The notes below the pieces were generated by a model that worked only from the letters and a program-made list of their open reading frames with translations, was not told where the DNA came from and searched no databases. Source: Tuwongella immobilis (GTDB taxonomy: Bacteria > Planctomycetota > Planctomycetia > Gemmatales > Gemmataceae). Taken from it: 64,000 nt of DNA. Within the stretch, counting starts at the first letter, position 1. The number at the start of each line of letters is the position of its first letter. Shown one piece after another: positions 1,666-50,894 of the stretch. Position numbers and translations under genes: made by a program. The stretch lies in assembly GCF_901538355.1 (NCBI RefSeq), contig NZ_LR593887.1, positions 310,001 through 374,000 of the forward strand, given 5' to 3'.

Positions 1666-2706
1666 TCAGTTGGGGCTCGGCAATGTTATTCCGTTTCCTG
1701 CTCCAAGGACGTCTTCGGCAATTTGATATGCCTCACGAGGCGTCCCCTCTTCCAAAACTGCCTTGACACCCACTCCTTCTTTTTGAGCTTGTAGTTTGAG
1801 CTTTTCAAGCTCGGCTCTGTATTGTGCTCGCTTGTGCGGATGAGCTTTCGCTTGGCCCGCCCACACTGACGAGTTCATTGTTTGGTACCCGAGCATCTAC
1901 ATCCGTATTCCCTATTGCGTTTGCTACTGGTTCACGACTTCGTGTCCCCCGATGTGCTCTGTTGCTCCTGCTTTTCGCAAGTCCCCTACAAGGTTGGCTT
2001 GTGCTCCTTGTAATTTTTTTGCATCCAAGTTGGTGACCATTCCACCGCCACTTTCAACTGCAACTTTTGCAGCGTCGGAACTTGCGTGAGCGATTCCCTC
2101 AGATTGAGTGCCAGGCTTGTAAACGGATGTTAATGCTCCGTCTGGCCCCTTCGTGGCTAACGCATATTGCCCAGGTTGTGTCGGGGTTGGAATGGTAACG
2201 CAGTTCACATGATGCGCCCAGACGGAGAAGCCCCACTCGTCGCAGCCGACTGCGTCGGTGTGGAACTCCGCAACCCTCAGATTGTAGACCGTTTCCCGCC
2301 GATCGGTTTCGTGGACACCTTCCACCGAAACTGTCTCTCCGTTCATTGTCGTCAGACAATCACCGATCGTCAGATCCCAGACCGGCGTCCAGCCTCGGTC
2401 AACGACCCAGAACGGATGCTCGGCTGTCGGCTCAATCAGTTGACCGGCCACGCGAAGTTCGAAGATAATGGCCGAGGGTTCGAATACTGCTTCTACAACT
2501 TGCACGGTGATAGGGTCGTTGAGGTCGGTTTCGTCTCGGCGGAGAATCGCATCTCCTGGGATGAATTGTTTGATCGGTTTGCTGGTGCCGTCGGCCATGA
2601 GCAGCGGTGTTCGTGCCACAAAGTATCCCGTCGACCACTCACCGCCGCTTCCCGCTACACGCCATACAGCGCTGCTGCTCGCCTTGGCCCGGCTTCGCGT
2701 CAGCAT
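1666..2706 (-). pseudogene. Hint domain plus frameshifted nuclease-like toxin tip (cassette 6)
   Basis: This is the only cassette with a credible start: ATG at 2706 preceded by AGGAGA. It codes for the most complete Hint domain in the array, including the entry block (GYFVARTPLLMADGTSKPI), the TAEHPFWVV block and the exit block ending VWAHH. The entry Cys/Ser expected just before FVAGTP is Tyr here. The tip reads to a TAG near 1924. A one-base shift near the G5 run at 1946-1950 gives NAIGNTDVDARV and VGGPSE, and a second shift near 1852 gives KAHPHKRAQYRAELEK with a GVGVKAVLEEGTP ending. The rebuilt tip resembles nuclease-type tips with a D-x-D and VGGPxK pattern. Broken as read. Confidence 0.55.
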
Positions 2707-2838
2707 TTCTCCTGCGGTCGCTGCGGGCAAAGCGAGCGAACGAACAAAGGCGTCGGCTGGCGGAACGGCGGGCTTTGCTCGATTGCTCGCCGTGCATCGC
2801 TTCCCGCCAATTTACCGCGACGGCCCCGGCGAGCATTG

Positions 2839-2883
2839 CGAGCGAACGAACAAAGGGCGCGGCTGCCGAGCTTCGTTCGCTCG
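2839..2883. repeat. Inter-cassette hairpin, perfect 12-bp stem
   Basis: CGAGCGAACGAA at 2839-2850 is the exact reverse complement of 2872-2883, with a 21-base loop. It sits between the cassette 5 immunity-type gene and the cassette 6 Hint gene. A second, less regular copy of the left arm (CGAGCGAACGAACAAAGG) lies at about 2732-2750. No T-run follows on either strand, so a simple intrinsic terminator is not favoured. The same element recurs in the other spacers of the array. Confidence 0.7.
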
Positions 2884-2961
2884 ATGCCAATCATGGGAGC
2901 CGAAAGCCGAACGCCCGTGCCAACTTCCCGTGGACAAGGTTATTCTACAGGACGACGAAAG

Positions 2962-3519
2962 TCAGCCTGTTGAGTTTGGCAGAGCCAAGTCGCTTTCAGG
3001 TGGCGATTGTACTGCGGCGGTTAGCCGCTTACCTTCTCGGAGCAAAGCGAGAGCCTTTGCTCCGACATGATACGACCTGATCTTTATGGAGCAGACTTTC
3101 TTGATGGCAGTCTGAAATCGCTTCATCAATGCTTGAGATGGATGCGAGTCTGATACCGTTGCGATGCGCCCTTGAATAACAACATTCTCGTTCCAGATGC
3201 CGCCGGGCTTGAACTCCACAGAGTCAGGATTGGCGAGTTGATCGACACAAACACGTTCGCCGTTGATACCCGCCATACGCAGATTCACTGGCGTTTCGAC
3301 ATCGCAAACCACGAAAGAGTCACAAGCTGCTGACGAATCAGCACTGGCACGTCCGAGATTGGGTAACTCAGCACCGAGGAGGAAGACGGGGACGTGGTCA
3401 TCGATTTCACTTCTTAGAAAGTTACCAGTAAGTGCGTACTTGAGCTTGCCTTGACTGGCAACGTTCTCCAGTAAGGCAAGCAAATCCTCTTGAACCGCAT
3501 AGAACAGAATTTGACTCAT
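2962..3519 (-). CDS. Putative immunity protein (cassette 5)
   Basis: An intact 185-residue protein of unrecognised family. Its ATG (3517-3519) overlaps the stop of the cassette 5 toxin tip by four bases (ATGA), a sign of translational coupling. It has no signal peptide or membrane segment, so it should act in the cytoplasm. An immunity role is inferred from coupling and position. This is one of two cassettes in which toxin tip and immunity gene are both open. Confidence 0.6.
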   Translation of the reverse strand: MSQILFYAVQEDLLALLENVASQGKLKYALTGNFLRSEIDDHVPVFLLGAELPNLGRASADSSAACDSFVVCDVETPVNLRMAGINGERVCVDQLANPDSVEFKPGGIWNENVVIQGRIATVSDSHPSQALMKRFQTAIKKVCSIKIRSYHVGAKALALLREGKRLTAAVQSPPESDLALPNSTG

Positions 3520-4349
3520 GGGAATTTCACCGGCAATCCGGTGTCCTTAGAGATGATTATTCGCTCATCGTTAGGGAAAGCCGCCCTGATTTTATTTGCC
3601 TTCACGACTTCCGACGCTTCGAGCTTGCCATTTTCCGTTGTGGCAGTTTGGATGCGGAGTGTCTTGCCATCCTTTGTCAACGTGATGTCCGGATAGGCAA
3701 TTCCCTTTGGAACATCAATGAATTCCTCCGATGCCCGACCAGCACCGCCTGTAACCTTCCACCCCTGATTCTCTCTTTGCTGCGCAATTGCGTGATTGAG
3801 CTTCCGAACCTCTAAACTTCCCCATCGCCCTCCATCTGCGCCCTCCGGTAAGCTCAAATAGCGCTTCAGCAGTGGGAGATCATTCTCGGTCAAGGCACGA
3901 CCGGCTGGGAGATTCTCCAGAGCGACCGTCTCAAGGTCTTTCCACGCCTGCCCCCTGACTCTGGTACTCTTCATGCTGATGAGTTGATGCAGAAGCTTCT
4001 CGCTCTCGGCAGTTAGCGTCCGGGTTTCAGCACTCTTGAAAAGTGCTTCAAGCTCCGAGGTATGCGTCAACTTATGCTTCGTCAGCCAGTCCTGATAGCA
4101 CAGGTTATGCGCCCAGACGCTGAAGCCCCACTCGTCGCAGCCGACGAAGTCGGTGTGGAAGTCGCTGACACGCAGATTATCGACCGTCTCCCTTCGATTG
4201 GTTTCGTGAACGCCCTCGACGGATACCGTTTCGCCAGTGATTGTCGTCAGACAATCGCCGATCGACAGTTCCCAGACTGGTGTCCAGCCACGGCCAACGA
4301 CCCAGAACGGATGCTCGGCTGCCGGCTCAAAGAGTTGACCTGATCCCAC
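3516..4349 (-). CDS. Truncated Hint domain fused to intact nuclease-like toxin tip (cassette 5)
   Basis: The Hint part begins inside the domain, just before PAAEHPFWVVGRGWTPVWEL, and ends with the canonical VWAHN exit signal; the entry block with the nucleophile is absent. The tip of about 190 residues follows and reads without interruption, ending with a segment containing GIAYPDITLTKDGKTLRIQT and IRAAFPNDERIIISK. Asp/Glu-rich strands of this kind suggest a restriction-endonuclease-like fold, but the family is not identified with certainty. The listed start is a GTG inside the Hint homology without an RBS, so this looks like a displaced module with no start of its own. It overlaps its immunity-type gene by four bases. 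Confidence 0.6.
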   Translation of the reverse strand: MGSGQLFEPAAEHPFWVVGRGWTPVWELSIGDCLTTITGETVSVEGVHETNRRETVDNLRVSDFHTDFVGCDEWGFSVWAHNLCYQDWLTKHKLTHTSELEALFKSAETRTLTAESEKLLHQLISMKSTRVRGQAWKDLETVALENLPAGRALTENDLPLLKRYLSLPEGADGGRWGSLEVRKLNHAIAQQRENQGWKVTGGAGRASEEFIDVPKGIAYPDITLTKDGKTLRIQTATTENGKLEASEVVKANKIRAAFPNDERIIISKDTGLPVKFP

Positions 4350-4400
4350 CAGCGTTAGCCGACGGATCTTCGCTTCGCAGCATCAATGCGGGGAACTTCA

Positions 4401-4446
4401 GGCGAGCGAACAAAGGGGCGGGTGCTGGGCTTCGTTCATTAGCTCG
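4401..4446. repeat. Inter-cassette inverted-repeat element, imperfect copy
   Basis: GGCGAGCGAACAAAGG on the left and TTCGTTCATTAGCTCG on the right match the hairpin at 2839-2883, but the right arm carries an insertion. It lies between the cassette 4 immunity-type gene and the cassette 5 Hint module. Confidence 0.5.
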
Positions 4447-4526
4447 ATGCCGATACCGGGAGCGCCAAGCCGAACTCTCCTGCTAACTTTCTTGGAACGA
4501 GATATTTTCACATAGCCCGACGCGAT

Positions 4527-4955
4527 TCATGAATCGAATGGAACAAAATCATCAACATACTCTGAGATGCTATCTTTGAGAATTAATGAAATTGCTTTTT
4601 GCGATTCATCGGAGTCATGAAATCCATACAATTGAATGCCAAGCTCCAAAAAGACGACAAACCCGACCCACAAAATCGGATTCGGGTCGTACTGACGAAG
4701 AAACTGTATTGGATTCTCAATACTCAACAGATCAACACCTTGATAAATAAGTGACGTCCCAACATGGCAATTTATTTCATATACAGTGTTGCCTTCTGTA
4801 TAGCCGATCATAATGTTAGGCCGCGATTCCGCAGTGCCACCCATCGCTCCCGGCAATATGGAGGTAGCAGGACCAGCCACGGCAGCAACTTCCGAAGGAG
4901 TCATGCCAAATCGAATCGGCAGCGCCCCAACATGTGGTTCGACCGTAAAATTCAT
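4527..4955 (-). CDS. Putative immunity protein (cassette 4)
   Basis: An intact protein of about 142 residues with the pattern MNFTVEPHVGALPIRFGMTP, a GYTEGNTVYEINC strand and an FVVFLELGIQLYGFHDSDES core. I have no firm family name for it. The ATG at 4955 has AGGG upstream; a GTG at 4964 would overlap the toxin stop as GTGA. It follows directly on the decayed cassette 4 toxin tip. The role is inferred from position. Confidence 0.55.
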   Translation of the reverse strand: MNFTVEPHVGALPIRFGMTPSEVAAVAGPATSILPGAMGGTAESRPNIMIGYTEGNTVYEINCHVGTSLIYQGVDLLSIENPIQFLRQYDPNPILWVGFVVFLELGIQLYGFHDSDESQKAISLILKDSISEYVDDFVPFDS

Positions 4956-4960
4956 AGATG

Positions 4961-5521
4961 TCACCCTGTTAGACCCACTTTCATCGATGGATCAAGCCCG
5001 TTAATCATCTGCTTGATAGCTTCGACGTATTTATTCCCAAACAATTTTCTAACATCGTGTAGTGGGCCAACAACGTCGAATTGCGGGGGACAGCGAAGTA
5101 ATTTTCAGGCCAGAGCAGAAAAACAACCCTGCAAATCGACATGGTTGATCCAGTAGCCGTCCGCATGATGCGCCGCCGCTACAACCCCACTCGTCGCAGC
5201 CGACTGCGTCGGTGTGGAAGTCGCTGACACGCAGATTATCGACCGTCTCTCGCCGATCGGTTTCATGAACGTCCTCGACGGATACTGTTTCTTTAGTGAT
5301 TGTCGTCAGCGAATCAGCGATCGACAGTTCCCAGACTGGCGTCCAGCTACGGCCAACGACCCAGAATGGATGCTCCGCGGTGGTCTCAATGAATTGACCT
5401 GCCACGCGAAGTTCGAAGATCAGGGGCGATCGTTCGAACACGAATTCCACAATCTGGACTTCGATTGGGCCGTTGAGGTCGGTTTCGTCTCGGCTGAGAA
5501 TCGCATCTCCTGGGGAGAAGC
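4961..5521 (-). pseudogene. Decayed Hint plus toxin tip (cassette 4)
   Basis: The Hint block is readable from about 5521 to 5180 (FVFERSPLIFELRVAGQ, TAEHPFWVVGRSWTPVWEL) but its exit is scrambled, reading GCSGGASCG where the others read GFSVWAHN. The tip that follows is split over frames: one reads HADGYWINHVDLQ, another LWPENYFAVP, and after a one-base slip at the C5 run (5085-5089) PPQFDVVGPLHDVRKLFG, ending in MKVGLTG at the stop 4961-4963. The remnant is only about 70 codons. Toxin activity is unknown. Its leader is fused at about 5515-5521 to the preceding immunity gene. Confidence 0.5.
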
Positions 5522-5911
5522 ACTACCAATCTCTTCTACATCGACGGATGCACATGTCAGCTCAAGTGTTGAGCCATCTGTGAAAACGATTGTGAAACGT
5601 AATGGCGGAATAGATATGCCATTTGCTTTAAATTGCTGACATTCTTCTTCAAAGCCCTTTGAGACTTCAGTTCGGATAGAGTCTATCCAATTGAGTCCGA
5701 CTTGATGGCCGTAACCAACGAGTCGGAAAAGTACCACATCCAGCATCGTAACTGCGAGTGACTGCCCTCTCCAAGGAAGATGTTCGATGTCTTGAACGAC
5801 TGTTACGATCAGTTGCAAGCGACGCTGGCGAGGGTTCGTGTTGTCCCAGACAACAGAAGTGACCTCCGCATCATGCAGGTAATCGAAGAGAGAATGATCT
5901 GTGAGATTCAT
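5420..5911 (-). CDS. Putative immunity protein, 3-prime end replaced by Hint DNA (cassette 3)
   Basis: From ATG 5911 (CAGGAG upstream) the protein reads MNLTDHSLFDYLHDAEVTSV and continues for about 130 residues to FTDGSTLELTCASVDVEEIG. Such a protein resembles small planctomycete proteins of unknown function. At about 5515-5521 the DNA becomes the conserved Hint leader of cassette 4, read here in a shifted frame, giving an unrelated tail of about 32 residues. The natural C-terminus is thus lost or shortened. The start overlaps the end of the toxin tip by about 40 bases. The sharp junction is direct evidence of recombination between cassettes. Confidence 0.5.
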   Translation of the reverse strand: MNLTDHSLFDYLHDAEVTSVVWDNTNPRQRRLQLIVTVVQDIEHLPWRGQSLAVTMLDVVLFRLVGYGHQVGLNWIDSIRTEVSKGFEEECQQFKANGISIPPLRFTIVFTDGSTLELTCASVDVEEIGSASPQEMRFSAETKPTSTAQSKSRLWNSCSNDRP

Positions 5912-6778
5912 GACACGATTCTCCTGGTAAGCGGGTGGTTGGATCGAGATGGTCAGGCCGACCTTCGATGTGTATGTGGGTTTGTCCTCTCCAGCTGGGC
6001 TTGCCTGCCTCCGCAACATCGATCCGGGTTACTTCTTGGAATTTGCCGTCAACTGTTTGTCCCCAACTGCCAGTTCTGTATGGGGTTTCAGGCAATCCCA
6101 AACGCTGAGCACGCTGACCAAATGCAATCAATTCAGAATGCTCCGCGGGAGACAGCATGCGCCCACCCATGCCTTTGGTAGGGATTCCCGCAACAAGTGC
6201 ATTTCACTGATCCGCTAACCCCTGAAGTTTGGTTTGCGTGCCACCTTCCCCACGAAGTACAAGTTCTTTTTCACCCCCGGCAATGAAATTGTTACCAGTA
6301 TCAAGGGAGTATTTGGTTAAATTGCCGTTGTTGTGTTTTTGATCTTATGCCACCCGCCACCCACATGGACAACTTCGTACTCCGCATGATGCGCCCAGAC
6401 GGAGAAGCCCCAGTCGTCGCAGCCGACTGCGTCGGTGTGGAAGTCGCTGACACGCAGATTGTAGACCGTCTCCCTTCGATTGGTTTCATGAACGCCCTCG
6501 ACGGATACCGTTTCACCAGTGATTGTCGTCAGCGAATCGCCGATCGTCAGTTCCCAGACCGGCGTCCAGCTACGGCCAACGACCCAGAACGGATGCTCGG
6601 CGGTGGTCTCAATCAGTTGACCGGCCACGCGAAGTTCGAAGATGATGGCCGAGCGTTCGAACACTGCTTCCACAATCTGGACTTCGATTGGGCCGTTGAG
6701 GTCGTGTTCGTCTCGGCTGAGAATCGCATCCCCTGGGACGAACTGCTCGATCGCCCGTTGGCATTGGCCCAGGTCCAT
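5871..6778 (-). pseudogene. Hint domain plus broken toxin tip with HIHI motif (cassette 3)
   Basis: The Hint module reads cleanly from 6778 to about 6370 (VPGDAILSRDEHDLNGPIEV, TAEHPFWVVGRSWTPVWEL, exit VWAHH, with His in place of the expected Asn). The tip then loses frame near 6322-6335, continues one base off as NLTKYSLDTGNNFIAGGEK, and meets an in-frame TGA at 6204-6206. The same frame goes on through PTKGMGGRMLSPAEHSELI, YRTGSWGQTVDGKFQEV, WRGQTHIHIEGRPDHLDP. The His-rich end could bind metal or catalyse, but the family is not identified. No RBS is evident at the listed start. Confidence 0.5.
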
Positions 6779-6802
6779 TAGATGCGACGGCTTCGGCGGC
6801 GA

Positions 6803-6848
6803 AGCGAGCGAACAAAGGATGCGGGGAGGGGTTCGTTTGTTCGATGTC
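6803..6848. repeat. Inter-cassette inverted-repeat element
   Basis: CGAACAAA at 6809-6816 pairs with TTTGTTCG at 6836-6843. The outer bases match the hairpin at 2839-2883 in part only. The pairing is kept here with different bases than in the other copies, which hints at selection for the stem. It is located between the cassette 2 immunity-type gene and the cassette 3 Hint module. Confidence 0.5.
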
Positions 6849-6924
6849 GATCATGGTAGCCGCAACTCGAACTTCGGGTTAACCCTCGCCGGTCAAGACT
6901 TGCATTCGGGATCGCTCGACAGTG

Positions 6925-7419
6925 CTATGCTTGGCGTTGCGAATATCGAGCAAGAGCTTCCCAGGCCGCAGCAGAAAAATCCTTGTCGGTCCAAACGTGA
7001 TCGACAAATCCTCGAAGGCACTCAACAATCCACCACCCAGAGTCCTCATCGAATGGGTCTGCTGGATCAGAAGCATTGTAGGTGACTTTGGCTACCAACT
7101 CCGCCAGTGACACAACGTGTCCCAAGAGCAGTTTACTATCACCAGACAATCCGAGATCATCGTCACCATCAAGTCGGAGTGTTAAAGATCGGATGCGGTC
7201 GAACAGCCGATGACCTTCAGCCCACAGCGAAGGTGTACGAGCAATTTGAATCGCTTCGTCGATCACTGGTTGCTGAAAACGACTTCGATTGTAGACCAAC
7301 GACAGAATACCCGCTGCCCACAGAGGCCGAACGTTGGCTTCGAGAGATTTGAACAGTTCCTCGCCAGCCTGCATGGGTGTACCGCTTTCCCAGCGAGATA
7401 GCACATTCTGGATGGTCAT
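6925..7419 (-). CDS. Putative immunity protein (cassette 2)
   Basis: An intact 164-residue protein with ATG at 7419 and only a weak RBS. It is alpha-helical in appearance, Trp- and Asp-rich near its C-terminus (DPFDEDSGWWIVECLRGFVD) and has no membrane segment. The family is not recognised. It begins about 27 bp after the restored end of the nucleotidyltransferase-like toxin tip, so an immunity or antitoxin role is inferred from position. Confidence 0.55.
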   Translation of the reverse strand: MTIQNVLSRWESGTPMQAGEELFKSLEANVRPLWAAGILSLVYNRSRFQQPVIDEAIQIARTPSLWAEGHRLFDRIRSLTLRLDGDDDLGLSGDSKLLLGHVVSLAELVAKVTYNASDPADPFDEDSGWWIVECLRGFVDHVWTDKDFSAAAWEALARYSQRQA

Positions 7420-7445
7420 AGTTTCGCTTCAGTTGAAGTAAGTCA

Positions 7446-8260
7446 TTACGGCAAGTGTGAGCACCGGATACCTTCCTCAAGCCATATCGTGCCGAGGAAG
7501 TCATTGGACAGACTTGTTGGCTTGCCACCGCCGGTCGTCACCGGCTTGTAACTTCCGAAGCCGAGAGGCGTGGCTGTTCCAGCGCCCCCTCCAACCGCCT
7601 TAAGCTCACTCGCAATTTTTGCCGCATCAGGGTGAGTGCCGTCGATCTTGAAGTCGATGTCACTCCGAGTGGGCGGCTTGCAAGGAGCATCATGCCCCGA
7701 GGCAAGTTGGTTTCGATCCGCCGCCCGTTTCCTGCGGCACGGCTTCCAACCACGTCAATAGTGGTGTTGTACTTCTTGGCGATAGCCAGCACAGCTTCTG
7801 CTTCGGCAGAGGACATCGAGTTGGGCGGCAGGTTCCTGAAAACAGGATGGGCCTGATTCGCAACATGAATCTCCGCCGCCGCTTTCGTCGGGAACGATGG
7901 AGCCTCGCCGACTGCTGGGACCACCTTCTGGAAACCACCTTCTGGAAGCTTCTCATAAAGATGGAAGCGGCCAGTCGCCGTGTCTTTGATGATGACGTAC
8001 TCCGCATTGTGCGCCCAGACGGAGAAGCCCCACTTGTCGCAGCCGACGAAGTAGGTGTGGAAGTCGCTGACACGCAGATTATAGACCGTTTCCCGACGAT
8101 TGGTTTCGTGAACGCCCTCGACGGATACCGTTTCGCCAGTGATTGTCGTCAGACAATCGCCGATCGACAATTCCCAGACCGGCGTCCAGCCACGGCCAAC
8201 GACCCAGAACGGATGCTCGGCTGCCGGCTCGATCAAACGATCGGACATCACCAGCGTCAG
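7446..8260 (-). pseudogene. Truncated Hint plus frameshifted nucleotidyltransferase-like toxin tip (cassette 2)
   Basis: The Hint part starts inside the domain near LTLVMSDRLIEPAAEHPFW and ends with the canonical VWAHN. The tip reads through NTTIDVVGSRAAGNGRRIE, then loses frame at the G4 run (C4 at 7695-7698 on plus). One added G gives PCKPPTRSDIDFKIDGTHPD and runs to TAA at 7446-7448. The G-S-R and S-D-I-D-F pair is the signature of nucleotidyltransferase-fold enzymes, here with the third acidic residue in the DFK strand. Without the repair the protein stops at 7538 with a nonsense tail. The rebuilt frame includes GSYKPVTTGGGKPTSLSN and an aromatic end. A single-base deletion is the simplest cause. 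Confidence 0.6.
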
Positions 8261-8398
8261 TCGAAGGATCTCCGTGTCGCAGCATCAATGCGGGGAACTT
8301 CAGGCGAACATGCAGTTGCTTTACCTAGCGGAAGGGTGAAATTTGCTCGCTTGCTCGCTATTCCTGACCAACTCCCATGAGGGTTTGAACGAGCATTG

Positions 8399-8442
8399 CG
8401 AGCGAACGAAGAGTGCCGGCGAGGGCTTTGGTCGTTCGCTCG
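8399..8442. repeat. Inter-cassette hairpin, perfect 11-bp stem
   Basis: CGAGCGAACGA at 8399-8409 is the exact reverse complement of 8432-8442. The preceding GAGCATTG is shared with the copy at 2831-2838. It lies between the cassette 1 immunity-type gene and the cassette 2 Hint module. Confidence 0.65.
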
Positions 8443-8490
8443 ATGCCGACGCAGAACTATCAGCTGAAAGCTAGTGCCAATCCTCGAATA

Positions 8491-8988
8491 TCAGATTTTT
8501 GTACTGGTCGGGTCAAGCCGTTTCAACATTGCCAATTGGCACTGACGCTCATCTGCATATGTCTCATCGTGGGTATCGTCATACCGATCATCATCGACTG
8601 CCATTGCCGCCGCAGTTGCCCTTGCTTCCGCTGCCGTCGATGAGGCACTGATTGCAGCGTCGGCAGAAGAATCGGTGAAAGCGGCCTCTCCCACAGCAGT
8701 CAGTGCTAACGCTGCTGCTGATGGGGATCCATAGCCAGGGTAGAGCGTGTCGTACAGGCGAGTAGCCTCGGAACGCAATGCCGTTAGTTGATCCTGTGAT
8801 GGTGAGTTGGACGCTCGCCGCTCAGCAAACTCAAGCAGTTTTAAGTAAATCGGGTCGGTGATAAGGTCTGAAACCCTCCGGCAACATTCCGCAGCGAAAC
8901 GGCGTAACAGATTCGCATTCAACCGTCCACCCTCAACTCCAATGTAGGATTCGGGGTCAGGTACAGTCTCGGATTCATTTTGGTTCAT
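8491..8988 (-). CDS. Putative immunity protein of the CCRRV-type Ala-rich family (cassette 1)
   Basis: An intact 165-residue protein. Its start (8986-8988) overlaps the toxin stop by four bases (ATGA). It contains LLRRFAAECCRRVSDLITDP followed by FAERRA and an Ala-rich helical segment (ADAAISASSTAAEARATAAA). This resembles a family common in Gemmata-like genomes with the pattern FACxCCRRIW, then AVEVAERYADG and Ala-rich repeats; that comparison is from memory. The family's function is unknown to me. The tight coupling to a toxin tip suggests that at least this member is an immunity protein. Confidence 0.6.
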   Translation of the reverse strand: MNQNESETVPDPESYIGVEGGRLNANLLRRFAAECCRRVSDLITDPIYLKLLEFAERRASNSPSQDQLTALRSEATRLYDTLYPGYGSPSAAALALTAVGEAAFTDSSADAAISASSTAAEARATAAAMAVDDDRYDDTHDETYADERQCQLAMLKRLDPTSTKI

Positions 8989-10002
8989 ATTCCGCCTCGA
9001 ATATTATTGAGCCAATGGATCGAGCACAGCCCCGTGTCTGGGTCGCGGACAAGTCGTTTGCCCTTATCTTTAAAGAACTGAGTAACTTCATCTGCGTGAA
9101 GTTTTTCGCCACCGGGTCCATCGAACACCGTCCCGTTTCGCCCCGCACGACCATCATTCGGGTGCCGAGACGGACTGCCGCCAAGATGTCCGTTGCCTTC
9201 AGGGTGGCCGAATCGGGGCAGTTCGTCAAGGACGCCTCCATCTCGAACAGCAATTTGGTGCCGGTGGTGTGGAGTGACCAATGTACCGCCATCGTTGCCT
9301 GCCAAAAGAACAGCACGCTCGGTGTCAGTAAAGCCACGGGGATCGGCCTGTCCCGCTCGCCGGATGATTGGCGGAGCGTTCATCGCAGGGTCGCGTGGAC
9401 TCATCGTGTGGTTGGATGGGATTGTTACATCGCCGCCCTGCGAGTTCTTCAGCGTCGCTCCATCACGGTAGACAGTTCTGCCTTTGGCGTCAATGACCGT
9501 CCGGTCGGGAAGACGGAATTGATCACGGACTTTATTCGATTGTTCAATCAACGTGTCAAGGCTCGGGGATCCACCCTGAGCGCGGTTCAAGGCCAACCTG
9601 ATTCCTGAAGGATCATTGAGCTTGATCGTCGCAATTACCTCCTGAATATCCTGATTGTCCGTGATGCCGATGGATTTTAGATACTCGAAGACGCGTGTAC
9701 AGGCATTATGCGCCCAGACGGAGAAGCCCCAGTCGTCGCAGCGGACTGCGTCGGTGTGGAAGTCGCTGACACGCAGATTATCGACCGTCTCCCGCCGATC
9801 GGTTTCGTGAACGCCCTCGACGGATACCGTTTCTCCGCTCATTGACGTCAGCGAATCGCCGATCGACAATTCCCAGAACGGCGTCCAGCCACGGTCAACG
9901 ACCCAGAACGGATGCTCGGCGGTTGTCTCAATCAGTTGACCGGCCACTCGAAGTTCGAAGATCAGGGGCGAGCGTTCGAATATCGCTTCCACAATCTGGG
10001 TG
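8985..10002 (-). CDS. Truncated Hint domain fused to intact HNH-like toxin tip (cassette 1)
   Basis: The Hint homology begins at about 10,002 (QIVEAIFERSPLIFELRVAG) and ends with VWAHN. The open frame goes on upstream to a GTG at 10,232, but those residues are low-complexity Ser/Asp/Pro and do not match other cassettes, so the real start is unknown. The tip of about 240 residues is uninterrupted and ends with TPHHRHQIAVRDGGVLDELP, GHPEGNGHLGGSPSRHP and FFKDKGKRLVRDPDTG. The conserved His cluster points to a metal-dependent HNH-type nuclease; this is motif-based. The gene is coupled to its immunity-type gene by an ATGA overlap. It is the most upstream cassette of the array. Confidence 0.55.
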
Positions 10003-10309
10003 GCGGCCGAATCTGCTTCAAGCCCTGTACATTTTCCGTGGGAAAGTTCGTGCGGTTGTTTTCGCGGGGGGGGCCGGCTGACTCGACCCTTGCGATGCGA
10101 TTCCGCTGGGGTTTCCGAAATTGTGTTGGAATCCGTGGAATCGCTCGAAGTGGAAAAATCGTTCAATTCGGTCCGGCCGATCTGACGATACTCATAGCAG
10201 ACATAGTGATTTTTCCTTGGTGGTTTCCTCACACTTGTCCCGGTGGTTGGACAGTGGAATTGAGACGCCAGTTTCTTTGGCCAGCAACCTGGCCGGGAGT
10301 CGATCGATC
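10003..10309. other. Boundary between toxin array and core genes
   Basis: About 300 bases without a gene I can support. The minus-strand frame of cassette 1 runs through it as a low-complexity sequence, and it contains a G8 run at about 10,067-10,074. It must hold the promoter of the lipoprotein at 10,310 and perhaps an upstream remnant of the toxin gene. I see no integrase, transposase or tRNA here. Confidence 0.4.
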
Positions 10310-49250: not shown

Positions 49251-50312
49251 ATGGCAGCGAATCTGAATCGTCGCCACTGGATGCAGCGCAGTCTGGGCAT
49301 GGTCGCGGGGGCGGGGCTGCTGAACGTAGCCGGGTGCCAGCGGGATGATGTGGTAACGGTGTATTGCGCTCAGGATCGTGAGTTTGCAGCCGATTTATTC
49401 ACCGACTTTACCCGACTTAGCGGTGTGGAAGTCCGTGTGAAATATGACACTGAAGCCAATAAGTCAGTTGGGCTGATTCAGGAATTGATTCAGGAGGGTG
49501 AGCGGCCCCGCTGCGATGTGCATTGGAATAATGAGATTCTGGGCACCCTGCGGTTGCAATCGCAGGGATTGCTGGCCCGGTTGGAATCGCCGCGTGCGAT
49601 GGCGTTTCCCGAATGGACGCATCCGCCGGAGCAGACCTGGCAGGCATTTGCCGCACGGGCGCGGGTGTTGATTGTGCATTCCGGGCGAGTGGCCCAAGCG
49701 GATCGTCCGGCAAGTTTGTGGGATTTGCTCCATCCACGCTGGAAGGGGCAAGTGGCGATGGCGAAGCCGCAATTTGGCACCACGGCGACGCATGCCGCTT
49801 GTCTGTTCCAGAAGTTGGGGACGGAGCGGGCCAGCGAATTCTATCGCGGCTTGGCGGCAAACGGCGTGCAGCTGGTGGCCGGCAACAAACAAGTGGCGGA
49901 GCAGGTTGCGGCGGGGCGGTTCGCCATGGGCATGACCGATACCGATGATGCCTTGATCGAAATTCAAGCAGGCAAACCCGTGGAAATGGTGTTTCTGGAT
50001 CGCACCGGCGGTCCGGCGAATGCACCGGAACTGGGGACATTGTTCATTCCCAATACCTTAGCGGTGATCCGCAATGCGCCGCATTCGGAGGCCGCTCAGC
50101 GGTTGGTGGATTACTTGCTCCAAGCACGAGTCGAACAGCGTTTGGCGGAAGGCGGTGGATACCAAATTCCGTTGGCAACCGATGTGACCGCGACGTTGCC
50201 CGGCGGTTTGGAAACCCCGAAATCCGTGAAGCCGCTGGAAGTCAACTGGACCGAAGCCGCCGCCGGGTGGGATCGGGTGCAAGCCTTCCTGCGCGACCAA
50301 TTCGCCGGGTGA
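49251..50312 (+). CDS. ABC transporter substrate-binding lipoprotein, Fe(III)-type
   Basis: 353 residues. The N-terminus has RRHWMQRSLG, a Tat-like signal, and a lipobox ending NVAGC, so it is probably a Tat-exported lipoprotein. The mature part (VVTVYCAQDREFAADLFTDF, VRVKYDTEANKSVGLIQEL, CDVHWNNEILGTLRLQ, FGMTDTDDALIEIQ) fits the iron(III)-binding FbpA/AfuA-type family. ATG 49,251 has GGAG upstream. The final 60 bases are duplicated downstream of hicBA. A permease gene of the matching family is 8 kb away; no ATPase gene is in the window. Confidence 0.8.
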   Translation: MAANLNRRHWMQRSLGMVAGAGLLNVAGCQRDDVVTVYCAQDREFAADLFTDFTRLSGVEVRVKYDTEANKSVGLIQELIQEGERPRCDVHWNNEILGTLRLQSQGLLARLESPRAMAFPEWTHPPEQTWQAFAARARVLIVHSGRVAQADRPASLWDLLHPRWKGQVAMAKPQFGTTATHAACLFQKLGTERASEFYRGLAANGVQLVAGNKQVAEQVAAGRFAMGMTDTDDALIEIQAGKPVEMVFLDRTGGPANAPELGTLFIPNTLAVIRNAPHSEAAQRLVDYLLQARVEQRLAEGGGYQIPLATDVTATLPGGLETPKSVKPLEVNWTEAAAGWDRVQAFLRDQFAG

Positions 50313-50323
50313 AATCGGCGGTT
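50254..50323 (+). repeat. 70-bp direct repeat, left copy
   Basis: Identical to 50,825-50,894 over all 70 bases. This copy is the 3-prime end of the ABC binding protein gene and its stop codon plus 11 bases. Confidence 0.95.
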
Positions 50324-50410
50324 TCCGTTTGGTGAGGTGGGTTTGGATGCGGCATAATCGAGAGCGTTTTTGAATTTGGATCGTGGCGATCGATGGGAGG
50401 AGATTGGCAA

Positions 50411-50620
50411 ATGGCGATGCTCATCGAAATGGAACAAGAATCGGACGGCCGATGGATTGCGGAAATGCCCGATTTGCCCGGTGTGATCGCCTATGGCGAG
50501 ACATCTGAACAAGCCATTGATGCCGTTCGTCAACTCGCCTTGCGCGTCTTGGCTGATCGATTGGAGCATGGCGAAGCGGTCCCCGCTGCGATCGAGGAGT
50601 TGTTTGAGGTCCGTGCATGA
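50411..50620 (+). CDS. hicB: HicB-like antitoxin
   Basis: 69 residues from ATG 50,411. The fold pattern MAMLIEMEQESDGRWIAEMP, DLPGVIAYGETSEQAIDAVR and a C-terminal helix is typical of the short HicB form with the RNase-H-like partial fold and no separate DNA-binding domain. It would neutralise HicA by binding it. It overlaps hicA by four bases (ATGA). The pair lies between two copies of a 70-bp repeat. Confidence 0.85.
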   Translation: MAMLIEMEQESDGRWIAEMPDLPGVIAYGETSEQAIDAVRQLALRVLADRLEHGEAVPAAIEELFEVRA

Positions 50621-50826
50621 ATTGGCCATCCGCAAAAGCGAAGCGAGTTTTGGCTGCGCTGCTTCGAATTGGCTGGCGACAGAAACGCCAATCTGGATCG
50701 CACCGCGTGTTGGAGCGTGCTGGGTGGGCAGATTATGTTTTCGCTTTTCACGATGAGGAAGAAATTGGTCCTCGAATGCTTGCTCGAATTGGGAAGCGGA
50801 CTGGATTATCGCCAGATGATTTGTAA
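50617..50826 (+). CDS. hicA: HicA-like mRNA interferase toxin
   Basis: 69 residues, a dsRNA-binding-like fold: SAKAKRVLAALLRIGWRQKR, then SGSHRVLERAG with the conserved GSH catalytic His, and a C-terminal helix. It would cleave mRNA when HicB is lost. It is coupled to hicB by an ATGA overlap. Its stop codon (50,824-50,826) runs into the first bases of the right copy of the 70-bp repeat. Confidence 0.85.
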   Translation: MNWPSAKAKRVLAALLRIGWRQKRQSGSHRVLERAGWADYVFAFHDEEEIGPRMLARIGKRTGLSPDDL

Positions 50827-50894
50827 GCCGCCGCCGGGTGGGATCGGGTGCAAGCCTTCCTGCGCGACCAATTCGCCGGGTGAAATCGGCGGTT
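50825..50894 (+). repeat. 70-bp direct repeat, right copy
   Basis: Identical to 50,254-50,323. It follows hicA directly and is not in the reading frame of any gene here. It marks the right border of the hicBA segment. Confidence 0.95.

Follow-up and report, generated by a model that had tools for sequence, protein, structure and literature searches.

Insertion with long, variable target duplications, on the order of 100 bp, has been described for restriction-modification (RM) systems (PMC3874152, section 7, and PMC3031569, citing Nobusato 2000 and Furuta 2010). In Microcystis, a ParDE-like toxin-antitoxin (TA) pair is fenced by 152-bp direct repeats (PMC7935541); these repeats are intergenic, carry inverted repeats and are reported only within that one species, and the passages of that paper on the pair do not treat them as a target duplication. 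The type II family HicAB consists of two-gene HicA/HicB operons with a patchy, horizontally spread distribution, and the passages on its spread in the 2009 survey (PMC2701414) and in the 2024 review (PMC11594946) refer to horizontal transfer and do not mention flanking target duplications. TA cargo between direct repeats is also found in integron cassettes and pdif modules. TA pairs are called mobile from their patchy distribution, which raises the question of how a bare 0.5-kb pair enters a chromosome without a transposase.

We analyzed a stretch of 64,000 nucleotides from Tuwongella immobilis (contig NZ_LR593887.1, positions 310,001 to 374,000; hereafter the window), in which a hicBA pair lies between two copies of the end of a solute-binding protein (SBP) gene. 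The features of this locus, in window coordinates, are the following:

49251..50312, + strand: ABC transporter solute-binding protein gene (SBP_bac_6 / PhnS-like), intact, the presumed target (Pfam PF13343, E=1e-18; NCBIfam PhnS-like match below cut-off; orthologues in relatives about 50-59% identical)
50254..50323, + strand: left copy of the 70-bp direct repeat, formed by the final 59 bases of the SBP gene with its stop codon and 11 further bases
50324..50824, + strand: presumed inserted segment, 501 bp, G+C 0.535 compared to 0.591 for the window
50411..50620, + strand: hicB antitoxin gene (HicB_lk_antitox), 69 aa (PF15919, E=3e-6)
50617..50826, + strand: hicA toxin gene, 69 aa, with the conserved GSHR motif (PF07927, E=2e-10)
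50825..50894, + strand: right copy of the 70-bp repeat, the SBP gene's 3' end without the rest of the gene, now 3' of hicA

The first-pass annotation had reported a perfect 70-bp repeat around hicBA, with a 501-bp segment in between and the hicA stop codon overlapping the repeat, and we confirmed this structure with exact coordinates. The two copies (50254-50323 and 50825-50894) are 100% identical over 70 bp, with a start-to-start spacing of 571, and they are the sole exact direct repeat of at least 22 bp in the window, a paralogous array at 2.2-9.9 kb aside. In the whole genome (6.69 Mb, a single contig), the 70-bp sequence occurs exactly twice and the next best match is 23 bp long at 91%, while the chance expectation for exact 70-mer pairs in a genome of the same size and composition is ~1e-28. 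The earlier proposal of a recent insertion event with duplication of the end of the target gene was supported. The SBP gene terminates with TGA at 50310-50312, and the stop codon of hicA, TAA, is made up of a T from the segment and AA, the first two bases of the right repeat copy. Since the duplication reaches across the end of the SBP gene, this gene is intact and hicA has gained a stop codon. In the alignment, hicA relatives also end with DL followed by the stop codon; since their ends share the same DL residues, no hicA coding sequence was lost and the toxin is full length. A terminator-like stem is present at 50302-50321 inside the left copy and again at 50873-50892 in the right copy. Through the insertion, hicA may have gained a copy of the terminator of the SBP gene, with a weak T run.

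The inserted genes belong to the HicAB family: the HicA domain (PF07927) adjoins the HicB domain (PF15919), and the conserved HicA histidine of the GSHR motif is present in the window protein according to the alignment. Unlike in the described family, the order is antitoxin first (hicB-hicA). The start of hicB is best set at ATG 50411, which is preceded by GGAGGAG and agrees with homologous N-termini; the mechanical ORF start at 50393 is less likely. The 501-bp segment contains only hicB and hicA, both intact, with no linked recombinase, and the pair should function as an autonomous type II module. The window hicA encodes the only HicA of the genome, and its GC3 is 0.42 compared to 0.67 in neighboring genes. 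HicA relatives at 70-85% identity occur in planctomycetes, acidobacteria, proteobacteria, cyanobacteria, chloroflexi and others, a distribution that points to wide horizontal spread. No HicA relative was present in the phage and plasmid collections; eight viral contigs with a HicA relative were found, one of them with a 66-bp repeat, and a viral scan with a fused HicB+HicA query returned nothing.

To compare the locus with its counterparts in related genomes, we used thirty relatives of the SBP gene, with 29 loci in other genomes of the same family, order and class that are about 46-59% identical. All of them had a single 3' end, with no adjacent hicBA and no repeated gene end within 1.5 kb. 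The case for an insertion at the window locus is built on family-level comparison, on composition and on analogy. These data also bear on an old tandem duplication of the gene end, which later deletions would have trimmed around a native hicBA. Tandem paralog arrays are indeed common in this genome, but the 100% identity over 70 bp, the unrelated DNA outside the copies on both sides, the lack of hicBA at the SBP gene of the family relatives and its differing composition leave this scenario with hardly any credibility. The two observations that the first-pass annotation had named as counter-evidence did not turn up: no relative has hicBA at the SBP gene, with diverged repeats or otherwise, and no wider tandem duplication extends beyond hicBA.

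We then asked how often other hicBA pairs are bracketed, counting a direct repeat of at least 40 bp and at least 85% identity around the pair within 1 kb, in 101 distinct hicBA relatives. Eleven of the 101 were bracketed, by repeats of 48-304 bp: L058 (48 bp), L060 (55 bp), L071 (70 bp), L076 (126 bp), L088 (265 bp), L093 (71 bp), L115 (61 bp), L121 (144 bp), L123 (54 bp), L131 (66 bp) and L142 (304 bp). Among the controls, bracketing was seen at 1/410 shifted positions in the same loci, at 0/27 GNAT genes and at 0/25 SBP genes. With loci taken as independent and two duplicate loci dropped by hand, Fisher tests gave p=1e-7 in comparison with the shifted controls and p=0.016 in comparison with the 52 non-TA genes. 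Some of the eleven are less clear: the repeats of L071 (z -4.2) and L123 (z -6.0) form strong hairpins and are likely cassette or terminator repeats, and L076, L115 and L121 sit in repeat-rich DNA. After setting these five aside, six clear cases remain (L058, L060, L088, L093, L131 and L142), which alone give p=3e-4 against the shifted controls and only 0.10 against the 52 non-TA genes. The hicAB locus of E. coli K-12 has no bracketing repeat.

As at the window locus, the repeat in L060, L088, L131 and L142 is the 3' end of a same-strand gene upstream of hicB; that of L093 is a gene start, and that of L058 a region before a gene. The bracketing repeats thus mostly leave the host gene whole on one side. 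The repeat of L142, which lies in a complete 4.4-Mb planctomycete genome, is 304 bp long (94% identity) and duplicates the last part of a gene together with some 120 bp of the DNA that follows. Two congeners (G247 and G290), which match it at 82-83% across this gene, have a single gene end and no HicA nearby, and both repeat copies of L142 align to one single place in each of them. This empty site shows that a target duplication accompanied the hicBA insertion at L142.

The first-pass annotation had suggested that the copies might correspond to attL and attR. At the window locus, such site-specific integration would mean that a mini element, or the remnant of an integrative element, was placed at the end of the SBP gene by an integrase acting in trans. 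Gene 3' ends are the usual targets of integrases, the host gene is restored intact, and a 70-bp identity block falls in the range of known att duplications. However, no integrase is encoded within the 501 bp, no relative of the SBP gene carries a repeated gene end within 1.5 kb, and the 70-bp sequence is found nowhere else in the genome. Furthermore, the repeat at each hicBA locus consists of different local DNA of different length, without a shared core, and hicBA has no conserved ends: DNA similarity between the window and other hicBA loci spans at most 50412-50837, essentially the coding region, and the comparison revealed no conserved sequence beyond the two genes. The att version of the earlier proposal is therefore strongly disfavored, and we regard an integrase origin as improbable. 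The window contains no tRNA that could have served as a target.

The possibility that hicBA is an integron-type gene cassette, with the repeat as its attC site, was suggested by cassette-like hicBA relatives with hairpin repeats (L071, with a third repeat copy, and possibly L075). The window repeat showed no attC-like fold, since it folds no better than shuffled sequences (z +0.68), and read from the sequence, it lacks the R''/R' motifs (RYYYAAC...GTTRRRY ends); it belongs, moreover, to the coding region of a conserved chromosomal gene, and only two copies of it exist. The Rfam search gave no match. The repeats of integron cassettes and pdif modules are recognizable recombination sites, whereas each hicBA locus has its own local sequence. 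For the window, the attC reading is refuted by fold and end motifs, with next to no probability left to it, and we accept it as likely for L071 and possibly for others. L071 itself (4655-6046), from a Thermoleophilia MAG, has hicBA between folding repeats with a third copy downstream and is a probable integron-type cassette array.

Instead, we consider it probable that a hicBA segment of ~0.5 kb was acquired horizontally and joined illegitimately to the SBP gene at its 3' edge, whereby the 70-bp target was copied to both sides, that is, an insertion with long target duplication. A long direct repeat of the target stands on either side of a small insert at the window locus, insertions of this cargo have duplications that vary in sequence and length (48-304 bp, all different), and no dedicated recombinase is linked to the insert. 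The earlier wording "capture by recombination" came close to this; what changes is the name of the event, which is better put as insertion with long target duplication, as seen at other hicBA loci. The window event is real and belongs to this known but neglected class.

As in the RM insertions described in the sources above, a small addictive gene pair is flanked by long, variable duplications on the order of 100 bp and has no linked transposase or integrase. The window locus resembles the Microcystis pair in having a type II TA module enclosed by two identical long direct repeats immediately downstream of another gene, and differs from it in that the repeat is the end of a coding gene.

Two routes could be envisaged for the joining. 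In the first, a break with nicks 70 bp apart would be joined to a foreign fragment by ligation, and filling-in of the overhangs would create the 70-bp duplication. In the second, a template switch at a replication fork would jump back and re-copy 70 bp after the insert. We infer that break repair with offset nicks and fork template switching are the likeliest joining chemistries. No Ku was found in the genome; because of this absence, classical bacterial non-homologous end joining is ruled out, and illegitimate joining in repair or replication is most likely. Ku-dependent end joining was rejected on the same grounds. The lack of a recombinase, of conserved ends, of a repeat fold and of an Rfam match speaks for host repair or replication as the joining step, and against an element whose ends are defined. 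Since HicA is an RNA-cutting toxin, it cannot make DNA breaks as has been proposed for restriction enzymes.

An insertion of the Campbell type would yield the same structure and perfect identity: a circle carrying hicBA and the end of the SBP gene would integrate by homologous recombination through the 70 bp, and this could spread an existing allele between strains. But such re-entry needs a prior junction of hicBA with the gene end, and so accounts for spread and not for origin, and for RecA to recombine efficiently, a homology of 70 bp is short. We consider Campbell-type re-entry an unlikely source of the window structure and retain insertion with long target duplication.

To find out whether the same scar, i.e., an insert between long direct repeats, occurs elsewhere in the T. 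immobilis genome, we scanned 2.46 Mb of it (37%) for isolated long direct repeats. Most repeats in the scanned DNA were tandem paralogs, whose arrays are common, tRNAs or CRISPR. Four further bracketed inserts were identified (coordinates in the genome, G000:C1):

720445-720536 / 721128-721219 (L171): ParE toxin and PF09720 antitoxin, tightly bracketed; 92-bp repeat, 94.6%
651285-651355 / 653696-653766 (L167 11285-13766): AbiP2-like defence reverse transcriptase, 502 aa; 71-bp repeat, exact
5377715-5378818 (L233; copies at 5377732 / 5378696, 123 bp at 97%): GNAT acetyltransferase gene; repeat of 123-142 bp, 94-97%
1913980-1915851 (L180; copies at 1913980 / 1915758): lipoprotein-like gene, 424 aa, with PD40 repeats and low G+C; 94-bp repeat, 93%

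The reverse transcriptase matched the PADLOC AbiP2 model with E=8e-194. Its 71-bp repeat is the 3' end of a 172-codon gene, and the 2.4-kb insert has a G+C content of 40.7% compared to 58.7% around it. Searches for HicA, ParE, PIN and PF09720 in the scanned DNA yielded two TA modules, and both (2/2) were bracketed, while random positions were bracketed in 17/1500 cases, nearly all of them in paralog arrays. A second PF09720 locus of this genome, at G000:C1:6329744, lies outside the scanned part. Among relatives, 2/25 PF09720 loci (own locus excluded) and 1/21 ParE loci were bracketed, the brackets of L361 and L377 being looser than the rest. The bracketed GNAT gene means that the process leaving these scars is not specific to addictive genes. 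The cargo differs from that of the RM insertions, comprising type II TA modules (hicBA, ParE/PF09720), a defence reverse transcriptase and even a GNAT gene, and the hosts are planctomycetes and members of other phyla, not Helicobacter.

Direct repeats should permit precise loss of hicBA by recombination or slippage, and the earlier suggestion of a site restored by such loss was supported as a possibility. Without the antitoxin, the toxin would be set free, so that cells losing hicBA would be penalized, and addiction may explain why scars persist around TA modules; repeats around hicBA elsewhere persist at 88-98% identity. As the GNAT and lipoprotein genes show, repeats are also kept around inserts that are not addictive. 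It is conceivable, although we lean slightly against it, that insertion with long target duplication provides small TA and defence modules across bacteria with a general entry route that needs no transposase; they would choose or survive at gene ends, with cargo addiction protecting an otherwise unstable repeat-flanked state.

The extension of this class of insertions to TA modules across phyla appears to be new: our literature search, which covered papers available without subscription, found no report of TA modules with such scars across phyla. If a tenth of hicBA loci keep the scar, the entry route becomes visible and countable, and as a recurring signature of TA and defence modules, the scar makes chromosomal entry directly testable. 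Scars provide the exact boundaries of the moved DNA and, from repeat divergence, an estimate of its age. Addiction can be tested directly as well, because the repeats permit clean loss and an active TA pair should accordingly be lost more rarely than an inactive one. The scar around the defence reverse transcriptase suggests that a simple repeat scan could reveal further small mobile defence modules.

Two other repeat structures were noticed in the same genome. A CRISPR-like array with the 37-bp repeat GGCGCAGTCCGCACGAGCGATTAGAGCTCATTGAAAC lies at G000:C1:480156-481357 (L159). On the minus strand of the window, positions 1924-10232 hold an orphan cassette array, in which a common HINT-like module, 'EHPFWVVDRGWTPVWELSIGD', is combined with differing C-terminal parts; this array resembles polymorphic toxin cassettes, and the assignment goes no further than this resemblance.
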